Assembly (NCBI RefSeq): GCF_015244745.1
Contig: NZ_JABCQI010000003.1
Location: 1-64,000, forward strand
Direction of reading: 5' to 3'
DNA from: Gluconobacter cadivus
GTDB lineage: Bacteria; Pseudomonadota; Alphaproteobacteria; Acetobacterales; Acetobacteraceae
Length of the DNA stretch: 64,000 nucleotides
Shown here: positions 36,809-50,832 of the stretch, piece by piece
Numbering within the stretch: position 1 is the stretch's first letter
Layout: every line of letters starts with the position of its first letter
Made by a program: the position numbers and the translations under genes
The notes under the pieces: model-generated
Told to the model about the DNA's origin: nothing
The model's input: the letters and a program-made list of their open reading frames with translations, nothing else
Database searches by the model: none

Positions 36809-37900
36809 TTATATCCAATGATATGATCTATTCAGGTCCATGGTGATATCAACATATTCTTTTGCATAGGTTTCACTGTTGAGAGAATTTTTCATATAAT
36901 CTTGTATATTTTTTACCATCTGCGCACGTTTATCCTGGTTGTCCAAAAGAAATTTTATAGCATTATGTAGCGCTTCTGGATCGTTGGGAGGAACAAAATA
37001 GACCATGTCATCATTAAAGTAGTCTCTAAGCCCCCCAGTATCGGTTACAATACATGGAACACCCATAACTCCAGATTCCTCTACAACCGTCAGGCCGCTT
37101 ACATAGTTATTACGTTCCAATGGAACGATAACTAGAATAGCTTTATCATAGAAAGAAGCCATATCATCATTGGTCTTTAAGCCGGCAATGATCATGTTGG
37201 GGTGCTTGCCCGCAATGGCGATTGCGGAGGCACTTTGTGTAGCGAGGAAAAATTTCTCATCTTTCATATGAGAGGCGCAAACAGCGAGCGTATTCCAGTC
37301 TCGTGAACGATCGTTACCAACAGCTATAATATTTCCCGTATTTTTTTCAGAATACGGAATCATTTCGTCGCAGCGTATTCCGAATTTTGTAAATTCAATT
37401 CTGTTATTCGGGAACATTATTTTTGCAATGTCAGAGTTTACTTTGCTATTAAAAGTCAGAACATCAACATCCCTCAAGAGCCATCGATAAAGCATTTGCC
37501 TAATTTTATTTTTAGGCCACTTATCAATCAGCCATACGCTTTGTCCGATAACTTTAATCTTATTCAGAGAGAATAATTTTTTTAAGAGCATAACTCCAAG
37601 TGTCTGCGATTCATTGTAGGTCCAAACCACATCTGTTCCGTTTGCGATTTCTTTGCGGTTTCTCCAGACCTGTATAAAATCGAAGCCAAGTATTAACCGT
37701 GCAGCATAGCGAACAGATTTTTGAATCGGGTTTTCTTTTACGATATCTTCAGAGTATGTTACTTTAATTTTATCTGAATTGGCTCGGTGGTATCCATAAG
37801 CATAAGGCTCATTGGTGCCGAGAATCTTTCCCTGACGGAATCGGTTATTCCAGTTTCTGGCGCCATATCCATAGCTCATCTGGACAAAAACTCTGATCAT
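36809..37900 (-). CDS. Family 4 glycosyltransferase (GT-B)
   Basis: The 363-residue protein has the C-terminal GT-B motif (EESGVMGVPCIVTDTGGLRDYF) with the donor-binding glutamates and the VVEESG context of GT4 enzymes. The N-terminal half is more divergent. It is distinctly AT-rich. It lies 135 bases downstream of UDP-galactopyranose mutase on the same strand, so a galactofuranose- or other glycan-transferring role is plausible but not shown. Confidence 0.85.
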   Translation of the reverse strand: MIRVFVQMSYGYGARNWNNRFRQGKILGTNEPYAYGYHRANSDKIKVTYSEDIVKENPIQKSVRYAARLILGFDFIQVWRNRKEIANGTDVVWTYNESQTLGVMLLKKLFSLNKIKVIGQSVWLIDKWPKNKIRQMLYRWLLRDVDVLTFNSKVNSDIAKIMFPNNRIEFTKFGIRCDEMIPYSEKNTGNIIAVGNDRSRDWNTLAVCASHMKDEKFFLATQSASAIAIAGKHPNMIIAGLKTNDDMASFYDKAILVIVPLERNNYVSGLTVVEESGVMGVPCIVTDTGGLRDYFNDDMVYFVPPNDPEALHNAIKFLLDNQDKRAQMVKNIQDYMKNSLNSETYAKEYVDITMDLNRSYHWI

Positions 37901-38035
37901 TACTTACCTCTATTTTTGATGGGTTTTGGGCAAAGAGCAGTGGATTCCAAAGTTTTTACTTTCGAGACTTCAGTAAAAACTTTTATTGAAGGAGCTCTGG
38001 CCATGGCTTTGGCAACCAGAAGTTTCGAATATTCC

Positions 38036-39193
38036 TCATCGCGGATCGATAAAGAAAGAAGGGATGTTTGAAGGTGCAGTTTTTAAAGCGCTATCGATTT
38101 GATCGCAAGCCATGAGGGCTTCGTTGATAGTGACATCCATATCAAGATAACGATAAGTTCCTAAACGGCCAAGAAAAGAGATGCCTTTTTGTTGTTGGGC
38201 AAGCTCTATATAACTGTTTAACATGCGTTTCTCATTGACTTGCCGGATCGGATAATAAGGAACGTCTTTTTTTTCAGAAAGTCTGCTATATTCTCTAAAG
38301 CACACCGTCTTTGAAAATTTATTTTGCTCCCATGGTGCAAAATGTTTGTGCTCAGAGATTCGCGTAAAAGGAACCTGCTCGTCACAATAATTGATAACGG
38401 CAGTCCCTTGATAGTCTCCGTCGACAGTAAATCGTTCAAAATCGAGCGTCCTGTACCCAAGACGACCTAATTCAAACTTAAAATAACGATCAATCGGCCC
38501 CGTATAAAAAACGTGGGAAAATTTCTCATCAATTTCTTCAAAAGAACAGGAGGTTCTGATTTCAATACCGTCAACGTTAAGAATATTCTGTATTATTGAG
38601 GTGTATCCCTCTTCCGGCATTCCTTGATACGTGTGATTAAAATAATTATCGTCATAGTTGAAACGCAATGGAAGTCTTTTAAGGATGGATGCTGGCAATT
38701 CCTTGGGGTCTAAGCCCCATTGCTTGCGTGTATATCCATAGAAAAAGGCATGGTAGAGTTCTGGTCCTATCATGCTTAATGCTTGTTCTTCAAAGGATTG
38801 AGGGTCTACAATAGACTTGTCAGCCTTCCCGGCGATAAACTCTCTGGCCTCTTTGGGCCCCATAATGGTTCTGAAAAATTGGTTGATGGTGAGTAGATTG
38901 ACCGGGAGAGAATAGACGCTCCCTTGTGAAATGGCTTTAACGCGATTGATATAGGGATGAAATGTTCCAAATCGTCTCACATAATCCCAAACGCGCTGAT
39001 CGGAAGTATGGAAAATGTGCGGGCCATACCGATGCACCATTATGCCAGTTTCTGCATCGCGTTCTGTATGACAGTTGCCACCGATATGCGAGCGTTCGTC
39101 AACAAGAGTGACTTTATACCCCTGTTCTGCAAGATGGCGAGCTATGACGGCTCCGCTAAAACCTGCTCCGACAACACAGAAAGACAGTGACAA
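38036..39193 (-). CDS. glf: UDP-galactopyranose mutase
   Basis: The 385-residue flavoprotein has the FAD motif CVVGAGFSGAVIARHLAEQG at residues 6-25 and HIGGNCHTERD. It also has RYGPHIFHT and the C-terminal EYSRLSEKKDVPYYPI region typical of Glf. It converts UDP-galactopyranose to UDP-galactofuranose for surface glycan. The gene is more AT-rich than the bulk of the window and precedes the GT4 gene on the same strand. The family assignment is secure. Confidence 0.95.
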   Translation of the reverse strand: MSLSFCVVGAGFSGAVIARHLAEQGYKVTLVDERSHIGGNCHTERDAETGIMVHRYGPHIFHTSDQRVWDYVRRFGTFHPYINRVKAISQGSVYSLPVNLLTINQFFRTIMGPKEAREFIAGKADKSIVDPQSFEEQALSMIGPELYHAFFYGYTRKQWGLDPKELPASILKRLPLRFNYDDNYFNHTYQGMPEEGYTSIIQNILNVDGIEIRTSCSFEEIDEKFSHVFYTGPIDRYFKFELGRLGYRTLDFERFTVDGDYQGTAVINYCDEQVPFTRISEHKHFAPWEQNKFSKTVCFREYSRLSEKKDVPYYPIRQVNEKRMLNSYIELAQQQKGISFLGRLGTYRYLDMDVTINEALMACDQIDSALKTAPSNIPSFFIDPR

Positions 39194-39716: not shown

Positions 39717-41132
39717 TCACCGGATGATGCAGTGCCGTTTCAGGAAGTGGAAAAGCTGTGGGGCATGCATCTGGCTGGCATTAAAACGGAGCCATGGAGT
39801 GTGATTCTGATCTGGACTGAATAGGAAACCTGGGGCGAGCATGATGGCCTGTTCTGCAGCTTTCCGGGCAACAAGGACAGGATCCAGCCCTGTGCGAAAG
39901 CGGGCCCACAGGAACATGCCACCGTCGGGGTATGAGAAAATTTCGAGGCCGGCAGTTTCCAGGGACGATATGGCTGCTTTTCGAGCGTTGGTCAGCTTTT
40001 CCCGCAATTTCTCCAAATGCAGCCGGTATCGTCCGTCTGCAAGAATGGTATGGACGATGGCTTCGTTCATGGAGCTGCTTGTCAGACTGCTGGCCATCTT
40101 GAGGCGCAGGATTCGGGCTGAGATTGTCGGAGGACAGGCCAGAAATCCCACTCGCAGTCCCGGCGAAATCGTTTTTGAGAAACTGCTGATGAAGATGACC
40201 CGTTGCAACTGGTCCAGATGCGCCAGAGTGGGGGTATTCTCATCCGCGAGACCGCCGAAAATGTCATCTTCAATAATCATGAAATCATGACGCTCGGCCA
40301 GACTGAGAACGTGATGCGTGACAGAGGGGCTGCAACTCGTACCGGTCGGGTTATGCAGCCGGGTGTTGAGGATAAAGGCTTTCGGCCGCTCCGTTCTGGC
40401 AATGCGTTCCAGTGTCGCCAGGCAGGGGCCATCGTGAAGGCGCGGGATGCCGATCGTCCGGAGGCCAAGGGCTTCAAGAGCTGGGAAGAGGTTGCAGTAA
40501 CCGGGGTCTTCCACCAGAACGGTATCTCCCGGTTGGGTCAGACATCTGATGCTCAACTCCAGAGCCTGACTGGCACCATGTGTGAGGATGAGCGCCGACA
40601 GGTCACATCTGATACCCTGCCGCATCAGGAGCAAGCGGATCAACTCCCGAAGACCGGTATGTCCATAAGGATTACCGTAGCCCGACATCTCCGGATCGGG
40701 ACGACGCCCTAGAGCCGTCAGGGCATGGCGAATTCCCTCACGGAAAAGATAGCTGTCAGGCAACCATCCACATCCCGCCTGCACGATGGAGGCGTTGTTT
40801 TCATAAGCCCGCTGGAGCATCCATGAGGAGTCGATAGATGGAGTGATGTCCGCAAGCGCGACGAGCCCATCAGTCGGTGGATGCTCCTGGCTGAGTACGA
40901 AAAACCCGCTGGCGCGTCGGGCCTCCAGAACACCATCGGCGACAAGGCGGTTATAGGCATTGGAAACGGTAAGGGGACTGATACTGCACTGTCTGGCAAG
41001 GTGACGGATGGAGGGCAGACGAGTGCCGGGTGTCCAGTCGTGGCTGCGGACGAGGGCTTTGACCTGCTGGACGATCTGGGTAACGAGCGGGGTGGGGGAA
41101 TGGGGGTCTGTCTGAATCAGGGGCTGGATCAT
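39717..41132 (-). CDS. MocR/GabR-type regulator (GntR helix-turn-helix fused to aminotransferase)
   Basis: The 471-residue protein has an N-terminal GntR winged helix (LVTQIVQQVKALVRSH, LPSIRHLARQCSISPLTVSNAY). This joins a fold-type I aminotransferase domain with PLP-contact sequence SSFSKTISPGLRVGF. Such MocR proteins use PLP and an amino compound as effectors, and often control adjacent transaminases. ATG 41132 is chosen since an inverted repeat at 41141-41166 would otherwise be inside the gene; ATG 41177 is the alternative. It is divergent from the beta-alanine-type transaminase, its likely target. Confidence 0.88.
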   Translation of the reverse strand: MIQPLIQTDPHSPTPLVTQIVQQVKALVRSHDWTPGTRLPSIRHLARQCSISPLTVSNAYNRLVADGVLEARRASGFFVLSQEHPPTDGLVALADITPSIDSSWMLQRAYENNASIVQAGCGWLPDSYLFREGIRHALTALGRRPDPEMSGYGNPYGHTGLRELIRLLLMRQGIRCDLSALILTHGASQALELSIRCLTQPGDTVLVEDPGYCNLFPALEALGLRTIGIPRLHDGPCLATLERIARTERPKAFILNTRLHNPTGTSCSPSVTHHVLSLAERHDFMIIEDDIFGGLADENTPTLAHLDQLQRVIFISSFSKTISPGLRVGFLACPPTISARILRLKMASSLTSSSMNEAIVHTILADGRYRLHLEKLREKLTNARKAAISSLETAGLEIFSYPDGGMFLWARFRTGLDPVLVARKAAEQAIMLAPGFLFSPDQNHTPWLRFNASQMHAPQLFHFLKRHCIIR

Positions 41133-41140
41133 GGTGCTGA

Positions 41141-41166
41141 CTGTACCGGTCGTTCTGGCAGTACAG
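41141..41166. promoter_or_regulatory. CTGTAC-N14-GTACAG inverted repeat in MocR/transaminase divergent region
   Basis: CTGTAC at 41141-41146 and GTACAG at 41161-41166 form a perfect six-base dyad immediately upstream of the MocR start. A further ACTGTA copy occurs at 41187. It is a candidate operator for autoregulation and for the divergent transaminase gene. Confidence 0.4.
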
Positions 41167-41298
41167 ATTAGGCTCATATTTCCCTGACTGTATATATTCA
41201 GTTCCGTTCCTATTCAGGATAGCCTTTTTCAGATGTGACGGGGCTGCCGCATCAGGGCCGCTCATGGATGCATCCATCATCAGTCTGCGAGGCGTATC

Positions 41299-42648
41299 GT
41301 GTCGAAACTGACCAATGAATTTGACTGTATCGAGACCCTCCGCAAGGGCACGTACTGGATGCCCTTTACGGCCAATCGCCGGGTCCGGACCGATCCGCAG
41401 GCGCGGCTTCTGACGTCTGCGAAGGGGCCTTATTATTATACGCCGGATGGCACGGAGCTTTTTGATACGCTTTCGGGCCTGTGGTGTTCCCCACTGGGGC
41501 ATGCGCATCCCCGGATCGTGGAGGCGCTGAAGACGCAGGCCGAGACGCTGGATTATGCGCCGCCGTTCCAGCTGACGAACCCGCAGACGGTCTATCTGGC
41601 GGAGCGGATCGCAGGCTTGGCGCCGGATGGGATGGATCATGTCTTTTTCGCCAATTCCGGTTCCGAGGCGGTGGATACGGCGCTGAAGATTGCGCTGGGG
41701 TATCATCGGCTGCGTCAGGAGGGGCAACGTTTTCGCATGATCGGGCGTGAGCGCGGCTATCATGGCGTTGGTTTTGGCGGCATGTCCGTGGGCGGAATTG
41801 TCCCGAATCGTAAGATGTTCGCTTCGGGCATGATGCCGGGCGTGGATCATATGCGGCATACCTACAATCCCGAACACATGGCGTTTTCGCGCGGGCAGCC
41901 GGAATGGGGCGCGGATCATGCCGAGGATCTGGAGCGTCTGGTCGGGCTGCATGATGCGTCGACAATTGCCGCGGTGATCGTGGAGCCAGTGCAGGGATCG
42001 ACGGGGGTGATCGTGCCGCCTGTGGGATATCTGCGAAAGCTGCGTGAGATCTGCACGAAACACGGCATCCTGCTGATTTTCGATGAGGTCATTACGGGTT
42101 TTGGCCGTATGGGCGAAAACTTCGCGGCGCAGCGTTTCGACGTGAAGCCGGACATGATCACGTTCGCCAAAGCGGTCACGAACGGCATTATCCCCATGGG
42201 GGGCGTGATTGTGACGGATGAAATCTACAACACGTTCATGACCGGCCCGGAAAATGCCATCGAGTTTGCGCATGGCTATACCTATTCCGGCCATCCGATG
42301 GCGACGGCGGTGGCCCATGCGGTTCTGGACGTCATGGAAGAAGAGTCCCTTTTCGCGCGGGTTCGTGCGCTGGAGCCGGTTCTGGAAGAGGCCGTGCACG
42401 CGTTACGCGATCTGCCTGCCGTCAAGGATATCCGCAATATAGGGCTGACGGCGGGGGTGGATCTGTTCCCTGGCGAGGGTGCGCCCGGTGCGCGGGGTTT
42501 GGCCATTTTCGAGCGCGGGCTGCGCGAAGGGCTGCTTCTGCGCTGTACGGGCGATACGATTTCCTTTGGACCGCCGTTTATTTCGACGCCAGAGCAGCTT
42601 CGCGGAATGATTGATGGTGTTCGCCGTCTGATCCAGTCCGTTTCCTGA
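41299..42648 (+). CDS. Class III omega-amino-acid:pyruvate transaminase (beta-alanine type)
   Basis: The 449-residue fold-type I enzyme has YWMPFTANR (active-site region typical of omega-amino-acid:pyruvate aminotransferase), SGSEAVDTALK, DEVITGFGR and PLP Lys291 (ITFAKAVTNG). Enzymes with this signature move the amino group of beta-alanine to pyruvate, giving malonate semialdehyde and alanine. The adjacent pyrimidine genes, which end in beta-alanine, and the malonate semialdehyde decarboxylase homologue 25 bases downstream make beta-alanine the likely substrate. The divergent MocR gene probably regulates it. Confidence 0.92.
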   Translation: MSKLTNEFDCIETLRKGTYWMPFTANRRVRTDPQARLLTSAKGPYYYTPDGTELFDTLSGLWCSPLGHAHPRIVEALKTQAETLDYAPPFQLTNPQTVYLAERIAGLAPDGMDHVFFANSGSEAVDTALKIALGYHRLRQEGQRFRMIGRERGYHGVGFGGMSVGGIVPNRKMFASGMMPGVDHMRHTYNPEHMAFSRGQPEWGADHAEDLERLVGLHDASTIAAVIVEPVQGSTGVIVPPVGYLRKLREICTKHGILLIFDEVITGFGRMGENFAAQRFDVKPDMITFAKAVTNGIIPMGGVIVTDEIYNTFMTGPENAIEFAHGYTYSGHPMATAVAHAVLDVMEEESLFARVRALEPVLEEAVHALRDLPAVKDIRNIGLTAGVDLFPGEGAPGARGLAIFERGLREGLLLRCTGDTISFGPPFISTPEQLRGMIDGVRRLIQSVS

Positions 42649-42673
42649 ACACCATACCCAGTGAGGACATGAC

Positions 42674-43081
42674 ATGCCACTTCTGCATTTCCATCTTGTC
42701 GAAGGCCGTTCCGACGGTGAAATCAAGACGCTTCTCGATGCGGCCCATGAGGCCATGCTGGAGGCGTTCAAGGTGCCGCGGGGAGACCGCTATCAGATCG
42801 TTTCGGAGCACAAGCCGTCGCGCATGATTGTGGAGGATACGGGACTGGATATTCCGAGGACCGGAAACGTCGTGCTGTTGCAGGTGTTCAGTCGGCCGCG
42901 CGGGGAAGAGGCCAATGCGCTGTTTTATCGGCTGCTGGTGGAGCGGCTGGAGGCAGAGTGTGGAATTGCGCCTTCAGACGTGATGATCTCCGTTGTTGAA
43001 AACGAAGATGCCCACTGGTCTTTCGGTTATGGCCGCGCCCAGTTTCTGACGGGTGAACTGGGCGGAAAGAAGCCTGACTGA
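42674..43081 (+). CDS. Malonate semialdehyde decarboxylase (tautomerase superfamily)
   Basis: The 135-residue protein begins Met-Pro, leaving the catalytic Pro1 after methionine removal. Counting from Pro1 it has Asp37, Arg73, Arg75, Trp114 and Phe116, which as I recall are the catalytic and pocket residues of malonate semialdehyde decarboxylase from Pseudomonas pavonaceae. Stretches such as DRYQIV, EDTGL-IPRT and WSFGYGRAQFLTGEL also match my memory of it. It would convert malonate semialdehyde to acetaldehyde and CO2. It is 25 bases after the beta-alanine-type transaminase, which produces that very substrate. A generic tautomerase is the alternative. Confidence 0.85.
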   Translation: MPLLHFHLVEGRSDGEIKTLLDAAHEAMLEAFKVPRGDRYQIVSEHKPSRMIVEDTGLDIPRTGNVVLLQVFSRPRGEEANALFYRLLVERLEAECGIAPSDVMISVVENEDAHWSFGYGRAQFLTGELGGKKPD

Positions 43082-43135: not shown

Positions 43136-44596
<1,461 letters not shown>

Positions 44597-44651: not shown

Positions 44652-45308
44652 ATGACAGAGACTCTTTCTCCTCCTCACAGGGCCGGACCGGGCGCGCCGC
44701 GGCAGGCGGCTGAAGCGGCCATTCTCGCAGCGGCTGAGCGTGTGTTTGGCCGACATGGTTTTCGCGGGGCGAGCATGAATGAAATTGCCCGCGAAGCCAG
44801 TGTGCCCAAGCCGAATATCCATTACTATTTCGGGACGAAAGAGGAGCTTTATCGCAGCGTTCTCGAAAACATCATGACGTTCTGGCTGCAGGACGCCGAT
44901 TACTGGCTGGTGCCGGAACGGCAGGCGCAGGAAGGATTTGAGGGATATATCCGGGCCAAGATGGCGTTTTCCCGCGAGCGCCCGGATGCATCGCGGATTT
45001 TTGCCTACGAGCTTTTGCAGGGTGCGGGCAATATCCATCATTATCTGTCTACAACCCTGCGAGAGCATGTGGCGAGACGGGCACGGACATTTGACGTCTG
45101 GCGCACGGAGCGCCAGATGCCAGCCATTGATCCGACCCATCTGATGTTTGCCATCTGGTCAATGACGCAGGCCTATGCGGACATGAGCACGCAGATGACG
45201 GCTTTGACGGGTCATGCAGTGTTGCGTGATGTCGATTTCGAGGCGGGTTTGCAGACCATCCTGCGTCTGGTTCTGGGGTTCTGCAACGATATTGAGGATC
45301 GGGGGTGA
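44652..45308 (+). CDS. RutR-like TetR-family regulator of pyrimidine catabolism
   Basis: The 218-residue TetR protein has a helix-turn-helix (SMNEIAREASVPKPNIHYYFGTKEELYR) and a C-terminal domain of the RutR/YcdC type (FSRERPDASRIFAYELLQGA). RutR in Escherichia coli is released from DNA by uracil. ATG 44652 follows AAGGGGAG; longer upstream reading is antisense to the dihydropyrimidinase start. A near-consensus RutR box lies before preT, 70 bases past this gene, supporting the assignment. Confidence 0.85.
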   Translation: MTETLSPPHRAGPGAPRQAAEAAILAAAERVFGRHGFRGASMNEIAREASVPKPNIHYYFGTKEELYRSVLENIMTFWLQDADYWLVPERQAQEGFEGYIRAKMAFSRERPDASRIFAYELLQGAGNIHHYLSTTLREHVARRARTFDVWRTERQMPAIDPTHLMFAIWSMTQAYADMSTQMTALTGHAVLRDVDFEAGLQTILRLVLGFCNDIEDRG

Positions 45309-45465: not shown

Positions 45466-46809
45466 GTGGATCAGACTCCGAATATCGCTGCAAACCGCCT
45501 GCCTCCGGACATGCTGGCACGGAATTTCTCGGACGCGCATCCGCCTTTGACGGCGGGACAGGCCACCATCGAATCCGATCGGTGTTACTTCTGTTATGAT
45601 GCGCCCTGTATTGAGGCGTGTCCAACCGGGATTGATATTCCGGGGTTTATCAAAAAGATTTCGACAGGGAATATTCCGGGATCGGCACGGACCATTCTGG
45701 AGTCGAATATTTTCGGTGGAGCCTGTGCGCGGGTGTGTCCGACGGAAATCCTGTGTGAGGGCAAATGTGTCCGTAATACGCAGGAAGACCGGCCCATCCA
45801 GATCGGGGCGCTTCAGCGTCATGCCACGGACTGGCAGATGCGGACGGGCAAGCAGCCGTTCAGTCGGGCACCCCTGACAGGCAAGCGAATTGCTGTTGTG
45901 GGGGCGGGGCCTGCGGGGCTGGCCTGCGCGCATCGGCTGGCGATGCAGGGGCATGACGTTGTGGTGTTCGATGCGCGCGCCAGAGCCGGTGGTCTGAACG
46001 AATATGGTATTGCCGCTTACAAGCTGGCGGATGAATTCGCACAGAAGGAAGTGGCATTCGTTCTGTCCATCGGTGGGATCACGATCGAAACCGGGATGCT
46101 GCTTGGCCGGGATATGACACTAACGTCTCTGAGGGCAGACTATGATGCCGTGTTCCTCGGGATTGGTCATGCGGGGGTCAGGGCGCTGGGGATTGCCGGG
46201 GAGTATTTCCCGGGCGTGCATAATGCCGTGGAGTTTATTGAAGAGCTGCGGACGTCTCCGACGAAATCGGATGTTGCCGTCGGGCGGCGTGTGGTTGTGA
46301 TCGGGGGTGGGAACACCGCCATTGATGCCGCTGTGCAGGCAAAACGTCTGGGCGCGGAGGAGGTTACGCTGGTTTATCGCCGGGCTGCGGAAAACATGTC
46401 TGCGACGACGGTGGAGCAGGAATGGGCGCAGACGAACGACGTTACGATCCGGTACTGGTCGGCTCCTGTGAGGATTGATGGAACCGAGCACGGCGTTGCG
46501 TCCGTCACTTTCGCTCGTGGTCTCGCGAAGGATGGGCGGGCGGTTTACGATCAGGGAAACTATACGCTTGAGGCGGATATGGTTCTCAAGGCCGTAGGGC
46601 AGTTGTTCCTGCCGGACCCTCTGGCAGAGGATGACATTGTGATCGAAGCTGGACGCATCAGGGTGGATGCCGAGGGGCGGACAAGCATGAAAGGTGTCTA
46701 TGCCGGTGGAGACTGCACGGCTGGCGAGGATCTGACTGTGGCGGCTGTTCGCGATGGCCGTAATGCGGCTGAAGCCATCACAGCGGCTCTGATGAAGGCA
46801 GGGAACTGA
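45466..46809 (+). CDS. preT: Dihydropyrimidine dehydrogenase subunit PreT
   Basis: The 447-residue flavoprotein is related to the small subunit of glutamate synthase. N-terminal cysteine clusters (CYFCYDAPCIEACPTGID, CARVCPTEILCEGKCV) hold 4Fe-4S centres. Two Rossmann motifs follow (AVVGAGPAGLACAH for FAD, VVIGGGNTAIDAA for NADH). With PreA it reduces uracil and thymine to the dihydro forms with NADH. GTG 45466 follows a TGGAGAG site. The next gene starts three bases after its stop. The pair fits the bacterial two-subunit enzyme. Confidence 0.94.
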   Translation: MDQTPNIAANRLPPDMLARNFSDAHPPLTAGQATIESDRCYFCYDAPCIEACPTGIDIPGFIKKISTGNIPGSARTILESNIFGGACARVCPTEILCEGKCVRNTQEDRPIQIGALQRHATDWQMRTGKQPFSRAPLTGKRIAVVGAGPAGLACAHRLAMQGHDVVVFDARARAGGLNEYGIAAYKLADEFAQKEVAFVLSIGGITIETGMLLGRDMTLTSLRADYDAVFLGIGHAGVRALGIAGEYFPGVHNAVEFIEELRTSPTKSDVAVGRRVVVIGGGNTAIDAAVQAKRLGAEEVTLVYRRAAENMSATTVEQEWAQTNDVTIRYWSAPVRIDGTEHGVASVTFARGLAKDGRAVYDQGNYTLEADMVLKAVGQLFLPDPLAEDDIVIEAGRIRVDAEGRTSMKGVYAGGDCTAGEDLTVAAVRDGRNAAEAITAALMKAGN

Positions 46810-46812
46810 GCT

Positions 46813-48093
46813 ATGGCCGATCTGAGCATCAATTTCGCTGGTATCCGTTCTCCCAATCCGTTCTGGCTGGCTTCGGCGCCTCCGACTGACAAGGAATATA
46901 ATGTCCGCCGGGCGCTGGAAGCCGGCTGGGGCGGCGTGGTGTGGAAGACGCTGGGCGAGGACCCGCCGGTTGTGAATGTCAGCAGCCGTTACGGGGCCAC
47001 GCGTTATAACGGTCAGCGTATGGCTGGGCTGAACAACATCGAGCTCATCACCGATCGTCCGCTGGCGGTCAATCTGGCGGAAATCAAAGCCGTCAAGAAG
47101 GACTATCCGGACCGAGCCATTATCGTCAGCATCATGGTTCCGTGTGTGGAGGAAAGCTGGAAACGCATCCTTCCGCTGGTCGAGGCAACGGGGGCAGATG
47201 GTATTGAGCTGAACTTCGGCTGTCCGCACGGCATGTCCGAACGGAACATGGGCTCTGCGGTTGGGCAGGTGCCGGAATATGTGGAAATGGTGACGCGGTG
47301 GTGCAAGCAGTACACGCGGATGCCGGTAATTGTGAAACTGACGCCCAATATCACGAATATTCTCAATCCGGCTCGGGCGGCCCTGCGTGGGGGAGCGGAT
47401 GCGGTTTCGCTGATCAACACCATTCAGTCCGTGGTTGGGGTCGATCTGGATGCGATGGCGCCTATGCCCGTTGTGGACGGGCGGGGCACGCATGGCGGCT
47501 ATTGCGGGCCTGCGGTGAAGCCGATCGCTTTGCGGATGCTGGGGGAGATTGCCCGGACGCCCGATACGTCCGTTCTGCCGATTTCAGGGATCGGGGGGAT
47601 TTCGAACTGGCGGGACGTGGCCGAATTTCTGGTGATGGGGGCGACGTCCCTTCAGGTGTGTACGGCTGCGATGCACTACGGATTCCGGATCGTGGAAGAC
47701 ATGATCGATGGTCTGTCCAACTGGATGGACGAGAAGGGCTTTGAGACGATCGCGGATGTGACGGGACGTGCAGTTCCGAATTTCGTCAACTGGAATCAGC
47801 TCAATCTGAAGTTCAGGACGCTTGCGGCGATTGATCAGGAGGCATGCATCAAATGTGGCCTTTGCCATATCGCGTGTGAGGATACGTCCCATCAGGCCAT
47901 TTCCAAGACGCTGCTGAATGGTGAGCGTCATTATGAAGTCATTGATGAGGAGTGTGTGGGGTGTAACCTTTGTGCGCATGTCTGCCCGGTGGATGATTGC
48001 ATCACGATGGTGCCGCAGCCGGTTGAGGGCGTGCAGACATGGAACGAGCATCCCAACAATCCAATGCGCAAGATCCCCGCAAAAGCGGGCTGA
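46813..48093 (+). CDS. preA: Dihydropyrimidine dehydrogenase subunit PreA
   Basis: The 426-residue protein has a dihydroorotate-dehydrogenase-like FMN barrel (FGCPHGMSERNMGSA with the active cysteine, NTIQSVVGVDLDAM, GIGGISNW). C-terminal paired ferredoxin motifs follow (CIKCGLCHIACED and CVGCNLCAHVCPVDDC). It receives electrons from PreT and reduces the pyrimidine ring. Start and spacing show co-translation with preT. Confidence 0.95.
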   Translation: MADLSINFAGIRSPNPFWLASAPPTDKEYNVRRALEAGWGGVVWKTLGEDPPVVNVSSRYGATRYNGQRMAGLNNIELITDRPLAVNLAEIKAVKKDYPDRAIIVSIMVPCVEESWKRILPLVEATGADGIELNFGCPHGMSERNMGSAVGQVPEYVEMVTRWCKQYTRMPVIVKLTPNITNILNPARAALRGGADAVSLINTIQSVVGVDLDAMAPMPVVDGRGTHGGYCGPAVKPIALRMLGEIARTPDTSVLPISGIGGISNWRDVAEFLVMGATSLQVCTAAMHYGFRIVEDMIDGLSNWMDEKGFETIADVTGRAVPNFVNWNQLNLKFRTLAAIDQEACIKCGLCHIACEDTSHQAISKTLLNGERHYEVIDEECVGCNLCAHVCPVDDCITMVPQPVEGVQTWNEHPNNPMRKIPAKAG

Positions 48094-48132: not shown

Positions 48133-49395
48133 ATGAGCACACAGGATGCATCTGGCGCGGTTGGCAATGTTACCGTGAATGGCACGAAGCTCTGGGACGA
48201 TATTCTGGAGACGGCCCGGTTTGGGGGGACGCCGAAGGGTGGGATCAGGCGCCTTGCCTTGACGGAGGAGGATCGTCAGGTCCGGGACTGGTTTGTCCGG
48301 GCCTGTGAGGCGTTGGGATGTACGGTGTCTCATGATTCCATGGGGAACCAGTTTGCGCGGCGTCCGGGAATGGAGAATACGCTGCCGCCCATAACGATGG
48401 GAAGCCATCTCGACACGCAGCCGACGGGTGGAAAATTTGATGGAATCGTTGGTGTTCTCGGTGGTCTGGCGGTGCTGCGCACGTTGCATGAAACGGGGCG
48501 GGAGACCCGTCATCCGATCGAACTGATCAACTGGACGAACGAGGAGGGGTCGCGCTTTGCGCCCGCCATGCTGTCGTCCGGTGTGTTTGCAGGTGTGTTT
48601 ACGGAGCAGGAGGCGCTCGATACGAAGGATCGGGAGGGCGTGCGCTTCAGGAACGCGCTTGAGGGCATCGGGTATCGCGGGGCGGAATCCTGTGGCGCAC
48701 ATCCTGTGGCGGCGTATTTTGAACTGCATATCGAGCAGGGGCCGATCCTTGAGGTCGAGCATAAAACGATCGGGATCGTGACGGGGGTGCAGGGCATGCG
48801 TTGGTATGAGGTCACGCTCAGGGGACAGGACGCTCATGCCGGGAGCACGCCCATGCGATTGCGGGCTGATGCTCTGGTGACGGCCGCGCGCATGATTGAT
48901 GCGGTGCAGACCATTGCGCTGGCGCATGGGCCGGATTCAGTTGGAACGGTCGGACTGATCGAGAACAGGCCGAACAGTCGTAACGTCATTCCAGGAGAAG
49001 TGTTTTTTACGGTCGATTTCCGCGACCCTGACGATTGCATCGTCCAGAAAATGGAAGAGGTATTTTACGCACAGGCGTCGGACCTGGCGGAAAAGGCCGG
49101 GTTGACGGTGGAGATCGAGCGGGTGTGGGATACGCCTGCGGTTCAGTTCGACCCCGAATGTATTGGGTCTGTTGCGCGTGCGGCTGATACGCTGGGCTAT
49201 CCGGCGCGGCGGATTGTTTCGGGGGCGGGACATGATGCGACTTATATGGCGCAGGTTGCCCCGACCGCGATGATCTTTGTACCGTGCGCCGGAGGACTGA
49301 GCCATAACGAAGAGGAAAGCGCTGAGCCTGACGATGTGACGGCGGGGGCAAATGTGCTGCTTCGAGCCGTGCTGGAGACGGATAGTCGTCTCTGA
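48133..49395 (+). CDS. Beta-ureidopropionase-type Zn amidase (hydantoinase/carbamoylase family)
   Basis: The 420-residue M20-type amidase has GSHLDTQPTGGKFDGIVGVL, NEEGSRFAPAMLSSGVF, IEQGPILE and a C-terminal SGAGHDATYMA. These are the dinuclear metal and substrate-binding signatures of N-carbamoyl-beta-alanine and N-carbamoyl-L-amino-acid amidohydrolases. In this operon it should hydrolyse N-carbamoyl-beta-alanine to beta-alanine, CO2 and ammonia. The strict distinction from allantoate amidohydrolase rests on context. Confidence 0.92.
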   Translation: MSTQDASGAVGNVTVNGTKLWDDILETARFGGTPKGGIRRLALTEEDRQVRDWFVRACEALGCTVSHDSMGNQFARRPGMENTLPPITMGSHLDTQPTGGKFDGIVGVLGGLAVLRTLHETGRETRHPIELINWTNEEGSRFAPAMLSSGVFAGVFTEQEALDTKDREGVRFRNALEGIGYRGAESCGAHPVAAYFELHIEQGPILEVEHKTIGIVTGVQGMRWYEVTLRGQDAHAGSTPMRLRADALVTAARMIDAVQTIALAHGPDSVGTVGLIENRPNSRNVIPGEVFFTVDFRDPDDCIVQKMEEVFYAQASDLAEKAGLTVEIERVWDTPAVQFDPECIGSVARAADTLGYPARRIVSGAGHDATYMAQVAPTAMIFVPCAGGLSHNEEESAEPDDVTAGANVLLRAVLETDSRL

Positions 49396-49437
49396 CAGGC
49401 GCGGGGGCGGATTTTTCAGACTGGGAGAGGAGCGTTG

Positions 49438-50832
49438 ATGACGGCGGGTTTTGCAGCAGATCTCTATAATGAGGAACTCGCCCCGGTTGCGCCGGAGAAA
49501 CGGACCTGGTCGTGGCTGAACATGGCCACGGTCTGGATGGGGATGGTCCATAACATCGTGGCCTACGAAGCGGCGGCGGGTCTTATGGCGCTTGGCCTTT
49601 CGGCATGGGAATGTCTGGAGGTCGTGGCCGTTGCCTATGCGATCCTGTTTGTCACGATGTGGTTCAATGCGCGGCCCGGAACACAATACGGGATTCCGTT
49701 CTGTGTTCTGATCCGTTCCGCCTTTGGGCCGAAAGGGGCGCAGATTCCGGTTGTTTTACGGGGGTTCTGCGCGATTTTCTGGTTTTCCGTTCAGGCTTAT
49801 GCCGCGACACAGGCGATGGATGCCATCCTCTCCACGTTAAGTACGACATGGGCGTCTTTCAGCACGCCTGTTCTGGGAATGCCGGAAAAGCGCTGGGCAG
49901 CGATGGCGATTATCTGGGCGCTCCATGCCTGGATTTCGAGCCATGGGGTTCATCGTATCAAGAATTTCGAGCTTGTCGCGGGGCCGCTGGTCATTGTCGT
50001 AGGGCTTGTGGCGACGGTCTGGGGACTACGGGTGGGGCACGGTCTGGGGCCGCTGTTTTCCGTCCCGTCCCGGCTCCACGGGTTGGCCTTTCTGGCGACG
50101 TTTGCGCTGGGCGTAACGGGGATGATCGGGATGTGGGCGACGTTTGCCGTGAATATTCCAGATCTCTCGCGGTTTGTCCGGTCGCAGCGCGATCAGGTTG
50201 TCGGGCAGGCCATCGGGCTGCCTCTGACGGCGCTTGTTTTCACACCGATGGCCATCATCACCACATCGGCGACGGTTTTGCTTTTCGGGCGGCCGATCTG
50301 GAATCCGACGGAGCTTCTTCTTGCGCTCAATCAGCCGCTTGTGACGGTGATTGGCGGGGCGACGCTCATTCTGGCGACATTGTCTGTCAATGTAGTCGCC
50401 AATATTCTTCCCGCGTCTTACGATCTGATCAATCTCTTTCCCCGGTATCTCGATTTCAATCGGGCCAGTCGGCTTGTTCTTGGGTTGGGCGTTTTCTTCA
50501 TGCCCTGGCTCTGGTTCGATCATGCGGACAATATCTACCGGATGCTTGATATTATCGGTGGGACCTTGGGGCCCGTGACGGGCATTATGCTGGCTGATTA
50601 TTATATTGTCCGGCGGCAGGCTTTGGATGTTGGTGCGCTGTACCGACATGGCGATGTTTATGATGGTCTGGCGGGCTGGCATGTGCCGGCACTCATTACG
50701 CTGGCTGTTGGGGGCGCTGTCGCATCTGCAGGGCAGGTGGTCCCGGCCCTGCATGCATTGGGAAATGTGTCCTGGTTTGCAGGGGTTTTGATCGGGTTCG
50801 GGCTGTATCTGGGTCTGAACCGTGTTGTGTGA
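49438..50832 (+). CDS. NCS1-family pyrimidine/nucleobase:cation symporter
   Basis: The 464-residue transporter has about twelve hydrophobic segments and NCS1 signatures. These include GTQYGIPFCVLIRSAFG early, IPDLSRFVRSQRDQ in the middle and GPVTGIMLADYYIVRR near the C-terminus. It imports uracil, thymine, dihydropyrimidine or a hydantoin by cation symport. ATG 49438 has GGGAGAGGAG five bases upstream. It ends the preT-led operon. Confidence 0.92.
   Translation: MTAGFAADLYNEELAPVAPEKRTWSWLNMATVWMGMVHNIVAYEAAAGLMALGLSAWECLEVVAVAYAILFVTMWFNARPGTQYGIPFCVLIRSAFGPKGAQIPVVLRGFCAIFWFSVQAYAATQAMDAILSTLSTTWASFSTPVLGMPEKRWAAMAIIWALHAWISSHGVHRIKNFELVAGPLVIVVGLVATVWGLRVGHGLGPLFSVPSRLHGLAFLATFALGVTGMIGMWATFAVNIPDLSRFVRSQRDQVVGQAIGLPLTALVFTPMAIITTSATVLLFGRPIWNPTELLLALNQPLVTVIGGATLILATLSVNVVANILPASYDLINLFPRYLDFNRASRLVLGLGVFFMPWLWFDHADNIYRMLDIIGGTLGPVTGIMLADYYIVRRQALDVGALYRHGDVYDGLAGWHVPALITLAVGGAVASAGQVVPALHALGNVSWFAGVLIGFGLYLGLNRVV

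Follow-up and report, generated by a model that had tools for sequence, protein, structure and literature searches.

A gene at 42674..43081 on the forward strand of the window (the whole stretch of Gluconobacter cadivus DNA that was analysed, 64,000 nucleotides) in all likelihood encodes a working malonate semialdehyde decarboxylase (MSAD) of the Pseudomonas pavonaceae type, which would serve as the sink for malonate semialdehyde in a uracil cluster, its relatives serving likewise in inositol catabolism. This explanation is based on homology, active-site residues, predicted fold, gene order, the exclusion observed beside iolB, and the absence from the window's genome of any IolA-type gene over the cut-off. 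MSAD is a model for the evolution of new chemistry in tautomerase-fold enzymes. The pathway described for it is the degradation of a synthetic fumigant, and the gene contexts of MSAD offer a concrete answer to the question of its natural role.

The msad gene and its product

The open reading frame is intact and encodes 135 amino acids, beginning MP, with the proline becoming residue 1 once the methionine is removed. That msad is a real gene is indicated by the presence of relatives in 112 of the 395 genomes of the order (E <= 1e-10). The product falls in the tautomerase superfamily by its match to Pfam Tautomerase_2 (93.7 bits, cut-off 28), and its alignment with 2aag, the P. pavonaceae MSAD, spans the whole length, with 60.0% identity over 130 amino acids (phmmer E 9.7e-48). 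A monomer predicted by AlphaFold from a 34-sequence alignment (pLDDT 92.5, pTM 0.85) has 2aag as its top fold match (TM 0.90/0.94, rmsd 1.1), with FG41 MSAD next. The first six ranks are occupied by 2aag, 2aaj, 3mjz and 3mlc (about 60% identity and TM 0.90-0.94 for 2aag and 2aaj, 40% identity for FG41 MSAD), while the first chain of cis-3-chloroacrylic acid dehalogenase (cis-CaaD) comes in 28th place, its identity in that comparison being 11%, and the protein is not to be counted as a member of that family. Position 114 is Trp in MSAD and, according to PDB titles, Glu in cis-CaaD, the two position numbers belonging to separate, unaligned schemes. With MSADs the best matches in both sequence and fold, the first-pass annotation was right to call the protein an MSAD homologue rather than a member of another tautomerase subgroup. 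Its nearest named relatives come from Gluconobacter and other acetic acid bacteria, the gene of Gluconobacter wancherniae being 90% identical, and the window's genome carries a single MSAD.

Six residues had also been claimed for the protein, and all six are there: Pro1, Asp37, Arg73, Arg75, Trp114 and Phe116 occupy the matching positions when the protein is aligned with the 2aag structure. That annotation took all six, Trp114 and Phe116 included, to be essential in the P. pavonaceae enzyme. Pro1 acts as the general acid, and Asp37, Arg73 and Arg75 are active-site residues, according to PMC11641302. These four are kept in all 100 aligned order-level homologues. In a wider alignment of 166 homologues that takes in FG41 MSAD, Arg73 is the sole residue of the six to vary (157 R, 6 S, 2 K, 1 Q). 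The other five are invariant, W114 and F116 among them, so those two do not discriminate; the same five are also invariant in a 17-row alignment with three relatives at 35-36% identity. The six-residue signature was considered as proof of activity and rejected, five of the six being common to all 166 aligned homologues, and taken alone it is weak evidence, weaker than its appearance would lead one to believe.

The uracil cluster

On the same strand, 25 bases before msad, ends aptA (41299..42648), which encodes a predicted omega-amino acid:pyruvate transaminase that would produce malonate semialdehyde from beta-alanine. The protein scores above the equivalog cut-off of the AptA model NF052567 (635.3 bits, cut-off 500), and its closest solved structures are the beta-alanine:pyruvate transaminase 4b98 and the omega-amino acid:pyruvate transaminases 4uhm and 3a8u; it is classed with the beta-alanine:pyruvate transaminases, its substrate being a prediction. 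The beta-alanine-type transaminase that had been noticed directly before msad is evidently real. The spacer between the aptA stop and the msad ATG (42649..42673) contains, judged by eye, a GAGG motif resembling a ribosome-binding site at about 42663-42666. Divergent from aptA-msad is the gene of a MocR-type regulator (39717..41177, reverse strand) with Pfam domains GntR and Aminotran_1_2, to which the PdxR model gives 240.5 bits, under its cut-off of 320. Further out, at 36809-39193, glycosyltransferase-like and UDP-galactopyranose mutase-like genes, recognized by eye from their translations, lie just outside the pyrimidine cluster.

On its other side, msad converges with a gene for dihydropyrimidinase (43136..44554, reverse strand; TIGR02033, 586 bits, cut-off 393), beyond which the remaining genes all run on the forward strand. 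The TetR regulator at 44652..45308 (Pfam TetR_C_3) is related to RutR but scores 156.8 bits against the TIGR03613 cut-off of 368 and can be called RutR-like only. The next two genes encode the subunits of an NAD-dependent dihydropyrimidine dehydrogenase: a PreT-like protein (45466..46809), directly upstream of preA, with Pfam domains Fer4_20 (dihydropyrimidine dehydrogenase domain II) and Pyr_redox_2 and with no NCBIfam model over cut-off among the 25 listed, and PreA itself (46813..48093; NF006183, 722.8 bits, cut-off 335). A Zn-dependent amidohydrolase (48133..49395) matches the hydantoinase/carbamoylase family TIGR01879 (451 bits, cut-off 204) and also NF006769, named for allantoate amidohydrolase (622.7 bits, cut-off 452); its predicted role as a beta-ureidopropionase, which would make beta-alanine, is drawn from the cluster context. 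Last comes an NCS1-family nucleobase permease (49435..50832; Pfam PF02133, 300.6 bits; TIGR00800, 306.8 bits, under the cut-off of 353), predicted to take up uracil. PreA, dihydropyrimidinase and the carbamoylase-family amidohydrolase, all over curated cut-offs, mark a reductive pyrimidine (Pyd/Pre) cluster, and, as read from its sequence, the cluster encodes all steps of a reductive breakdown that runs from uracil through beta-alanine to malonate semialdehyde. Among the nine cluster genes scanned, MSAD is the only candidate user of malonate semialdehyde.

Neighbourhoods of MSAD homologues

PreA is found in 88 of the 395 genomes of the order, and its co-occurrence with MSAD is far from random (Fisher p ~1e-13, kinship ignored). 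In 13 of the 395, no more than 5 kb separates msad from preA, and the genes stand in five orders: mocR-aptA-msad-dhp-rutR-preT-preA-bup-ncs1; mocR-aptA-msad-preT-preA-bup; preT-preA-bup-msad, without aptA; preT-preA-bup-mocR-aptA-msad; and preT-preA-bup-aptA-msad. The order yielded 104 homologues at 50% identity or more, of which four were left out (three fragments and G024, an inositol case that enters the iolB count below), so that 100 were analysed, the window and 99 fetched loci with flanks of about 9 kb, shorter at contig ends. In 41 of the 100, namely the window and 40 fetched loci, msad has aptA immediately before it on its own strand; the spacing in the 40 is 26-80 bases. Thirteen homologues are near preA, nine of them also among the 41; iolB or iolC is within 8 kb of 17; and 38 have no aptA, preA or iol neighbours. 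Synteny of msad with pyd/pre genes, which had been put forward as a check, is thus recurrent. The broader suggestion, that the breakdown of pyrimidines and beta-alanine is the natural setting of the enzyme, is favored by the repeated linkage to aptA and preA but is too narrow, since msad is also tied to inositol catabolism.

Of the 40 fetched loci of the order in which aptA precedes msad, 29 have a homologue of the MocR-type regulator, and it accompanies aptA-msad in some Methylobacterium as well. GabR senses GABA, and by analogy the MocR-type regulator may sense beta-alanine. Outlying groups were reached with Acetobacteraceae queries only, and by that route 18 of 23 named Methylobacterium-type loci and all 10 named Hyphomicrobium-type loci proved to be without aptA, preA or iol neighbours. 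Of 15 hand-picked plasmid loci, 14 have annotation; three of these are in an iol cluster, one (Kozakia) in a pyd cluster and ten in neither, and the ten include that of Methylobacterium nodulans beside nitronate monooxygenases. In a close relative of the window (locus L031, genome G138), preA shows up as two pieces in different matches, and the gene may be interrupted.

Malonate semialdehyde also arises in inositol breakdown, where it is taken by the dehydrogenase IolA, according to PMC9430895 and PMC12632250. Among the neighbours of other MSAD copies, iolB, iolE and the iolC kinase/aldolase score above their curated cut-offs, as does iolG at a Komagataeibacter locus, with another iolG-like protein just under (535.8 vs 540). 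Across the order, 45 genomes carry iolB, at 46 places in all. When 15 kb around each place is considered, contig ends included, MSAD alone is found at 18, MMSDH alone (the IolA/MmsA-type dehydrogenase, TIGR01722 over cut-off) at 16, both at none and neither at 12 (Fisher 6e-5, the exclusion tests being not fully corrected for descent). Counted by genus, six have MSAD only, nine MMSDH only, one has each in different species, and three have neither (Fisher p 0.02). Of the 12 places without either gene close by, nine belong to genomes that carry TIGR01722 at another site and three to genomes that lack both genes. A TIGR01722 gene is present elsewhere in 11 of the 18 iol-type MSAD genomes and absent from seven, and four of the 13 pyd-type genomes have one; over the 395 genomes, no anticorrelation of MSAD and TIGR01722 was found (p 0.61), and it is confined to the 88 preA+ genomes (p 0.014), with nine of the 88 having neither gene. 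Gene order and mutual exclusion near iolB lead to the proposal that the inositol-linked relatives stand in for IolA, a CoA-acylating dehydrogenase.

In some genomes the two settings are found together. Gluconobacter frateurii (L164, L177), Asaia siamensis (L195, L172) and genome G092 each have two copies, of which one is next to aptA and the other belongs to an iol cluster. Three plasmids, one from Rhizobium jaguaris and two from Agrobacterium strains, carry MSAD immediately after iolB; no IolA/MmsA is annotated in the 42 and 44 kb around MSAD on the first two of these three plasmids, the gene table being incomplete, and the plasmid of Agrobacterium 1D1108 has one aldehyde dehydrogenase family gene about 10 kb from MSAD. 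On the MSAD tree (fasttree, few columns), the iol label requires at least four changes on starred branches. At one locus (L068, genome G021), the iolB match beside MSAD has in-frame stops and iolC is in several pieces; that inositol cluster may be decaying.

Other neighbourhoods are more varied. Four MSADs (L125, L129, L142 and L239) are near a nitronate monooxygenase-like gene. At L125 (9326-10471) the two genes adjoin, with a slight overlap of the reading frames; at L142 and at L239 (4997-6390, Methylobacterium nodulans) they are no more than 40 bases apart on the same strand; at L129 (4567-8850) they are 3.4 kb apart on opposite strands, with nirB between. The L129 enzyme matches the nitronate monooxygenases 4qis and 4q4k (E 6.1e-94 for 4qis), while that of M. 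nodulans is more distantly related, obtains higher scores against FabK-type reductases and is under every NCBIfam cut-off listed. Oxidation of propionate 3-nitronate leads to malonate semialdehyde. Catabolism of the 3-nitropropionate type, giving nitrite and malonate semialdehyde, is therefore a possible further source for MSAD, to be taken as a lead only. In four Komagataeibacter-type loci (L042, L044, L047, L050), MSAD follows a sugar-porter MFS gene accompanied by Gfo/Idh dehydrogenases, with no iolB or iolC match in the fetched flanks; possibly this is an unrecognised sugar pathway that produces malonate semialdehyde. On plasmid pAt1 of Agrobacterium Sta004 (L241), MSAD sits between genes annotated as hpaH hydratase, aldolase/citrate lyase family protein and pyruvate carboxylase, an arrangement that aldol cleavage to pyruvate and malonate semialdehyde would fit. 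Six Acetobacter-type loci (L071, L082, L083, L091, L101, L104) have kept downstream flanks with, by eye, small cysteine-rich and rhodanese-like proteins, and no metabolic partner was seen there.

Two further associations noticed by eye were dropped. In a few Acetobacter loci, MSAD is preceded by a pair of genes resembling urea carboxylase and allophanate hydrolase, but the conserved flanks are on the opposite side of MSAD and what lies upstream differs between loci. Beside Methylobacterium MSADs stands a CitE/HpcH-like gene, an arrangement attributed to common descent of the locus. A single-sequence query confirmed no MSAD in viral contigs. Taken over all these settings, MSAD is probably not primarily an enzyme for xenobiotics but a modular sink for malonate semialdehyde, recruited repeatedly to the catabolism of uracil and beta-alanine, to that of myo-inositol, and possibly to nitronate oxidation.

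Other fates of malonate semialdehyde and the proposed pathway

The window's genome, 99.99% complete by computed estimate, has no MMSDH (TIGR01722) over 448.5 bits, the best of six aldehyde dehydrogenase-like places reaching 312.4, no RutA over the cut-off, and no iolB at E <= 1e-50. It has a single MSAD, which is the only exit for malonate semialdehyde found of those tested. An ExaC-type acetaldehyde dehydrogenase was likewise not found over the cut-off in this genome (best 374 vs 900 bits), so the acetaldehyde step leans on the general biology of acetic acid bacteria. Elsewhere, an aldehyde dehydrogenase gene lies at +251 to +253 bases from MSAD in three loci (L106, L107, L119) and upstream on the opposite strand in four others (L110, L116, L117, L118). 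The seven MSADs concerned form one branch, 57-60% identical to the window's, and the aldehyde dehydrogenase paired with them is a candidate for the acetaldehyde step.

Perhaps MSAD merely cleans up a toxic overflow, the main flow going to 3-hydroxypropionate by a YdfG/RutE-like reductase or to acetyl-CoA by other aldehyde dehydrogenases. The six aldehyde dehydrogenase-like places in the window's genome would allow this, though all are under the MMSDH cut-off, as would the 24 of 88 preA+ genomes that have both MSAD and MMSDH; yet the two enzymes share none of the 46 iolB neighbourhoods, and no other gene of the scanned cluster would use malonate semialdehyde, which makes an overflow role unlikely. 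It is more doubtful still that the true substrate is methylmalonate semialdehyde, derived from thymine via beta-aminoisobutyrate and converted to propionaldehyde. The reductive enzymes are generally known to act on thymine too (a GO term on a PreA says as much), but the inositol route, home of other copies, is generally known to give malonate semialdehyde and not the methyl form, and malonate semialdehyde is the substrate that gives the solved relative its name.

Database names of the relatives, such as "tautomerase family protein", "4-oxalocrotonate tautomerase" and "Tautomerase YrdN", might suggest a tautomerase of another kind (e.g., phenylpyruvate or oxalocrotonate tautomerase), with its neighbours there by chance or for an unrelated task. 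Against the best match being MSAD in both sequence and fold, and against neighbours that supply malonate semialdehyde in several gene orders, this is very improbable. As for a relic or import of chlorinated-acrylate degradation, MSAD is indeed described within the degradation of 1,3-dichloropropene in PMC10606566, but none of the nine scanned genes is a dehalogenase and the recurrent links are to pyrimidine, beta-alanine and inositol instead, so that this origin can hardly be credited at all.

With MSAD taken as the sink for malonate semialdehyde, uracil would enter through the NCS1 permease and be reduced by PreT/PreA, dihydropyrimidinase would open the reduced ring, and cleavage by beta-ureidopropionase would give beta-alanine, CO2 and ammonia. 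AptA would pass the amino group of beta-alanine to pyruvate, leaving malonate semialdehyde, which MSAD would split without a cofactor into acetaldehyde and CO2, Pro1 serving as general acid and Arg73 and Arg75 presumably holding the carboxylate. Probably aptA and msad are on the same transcript. We infer each of these catalytic steps, as well as the co-transcription and the fate of acetaldehyde. Acetic acid bacteria readily oxidise acetaldehyde to acetate, and the pathway would therefore mainly harvest nitrogen. Relatives of the enzyme would act likewise in other routes through malonate semialdehyde, above all in myo-inositol catabolism, replacing IolA.

Comparison with known systems

The window's enzyme belongs to the known MSAD family, and searches of open-access papers turned up no description of the pathway variant. 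The accessible portions of PMC10606566, PMC5818174, PMC11641302, PMC11656851 and PMC9813972 make no link between MSAD and pyrimidine, beta-alanine or inositol catabolism, and no statement placing MSAD in pyrimidine or inositol pathways was found among the open-access literature matches listed. For MSAD itself, PMC11641302 names a hydratase side activity and inhibition by 3-halopropiolates. P. pavonaceae MSAD (2aag, 2aal, 2aaj) resembles the window's protein in whole-length identity (60%), in the six residues and in the predicted fold, and differs in being known from the degradation of 1,3-dichloropropene and 3-chloroacrylate, whereas the window's gene is in a uracil/beta-alanine cluster. FG41 MSAD (3mjz, 3mlc, 4lho, 4lhp) has the same fold, 40% identity, P1, D37, W114, F116 and an aligned Arg at 75, but it has Gln for Arg73 with a one-residue shift nearby, and it sits on a long branch of unsure placement.

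The Rut pathway (RutA-G) also takes uracil to malonate semialdehyde, and the window has a RutR-like regulator; however, the window's genome has no RutA over the cut-off, and ring opening in the window is predicted to be reductive. IolA/MmsA/DddC (TIGR01722) likewise disposes of malonate semialdehyde and is near iolB in other genomes, but it is an unrelated type of enzyme, generally known to make acetyl-CoA, and none is over the cut-off in the window's genome. TIGR01722, DddC and IolA are linked in PMC12632250. A genome that has iol or pyd genes but lacks an IolA-type dehydrogenase may still have a whole pathway, since the step could be filled by a gene carrying no name beyond "tautomerase family protein". 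Another likeness is to Pyd/Pre catabolism with a beta-alanine transaminase, for which the window has genes for the PreT-like protein, PreA, dihydropyrimidinase, amidohydrolase, transaminase and permease. The difference is in the last step, in which malonate semialdehyde is predicted to be decarboxylated to acetaldehyde here, instead of being oxidised to acetyl-CoA or reduced to 3-hydroxypropionate, and with it the predicted product shifts from acetyl-CoA to acetaldehyde or acetate.
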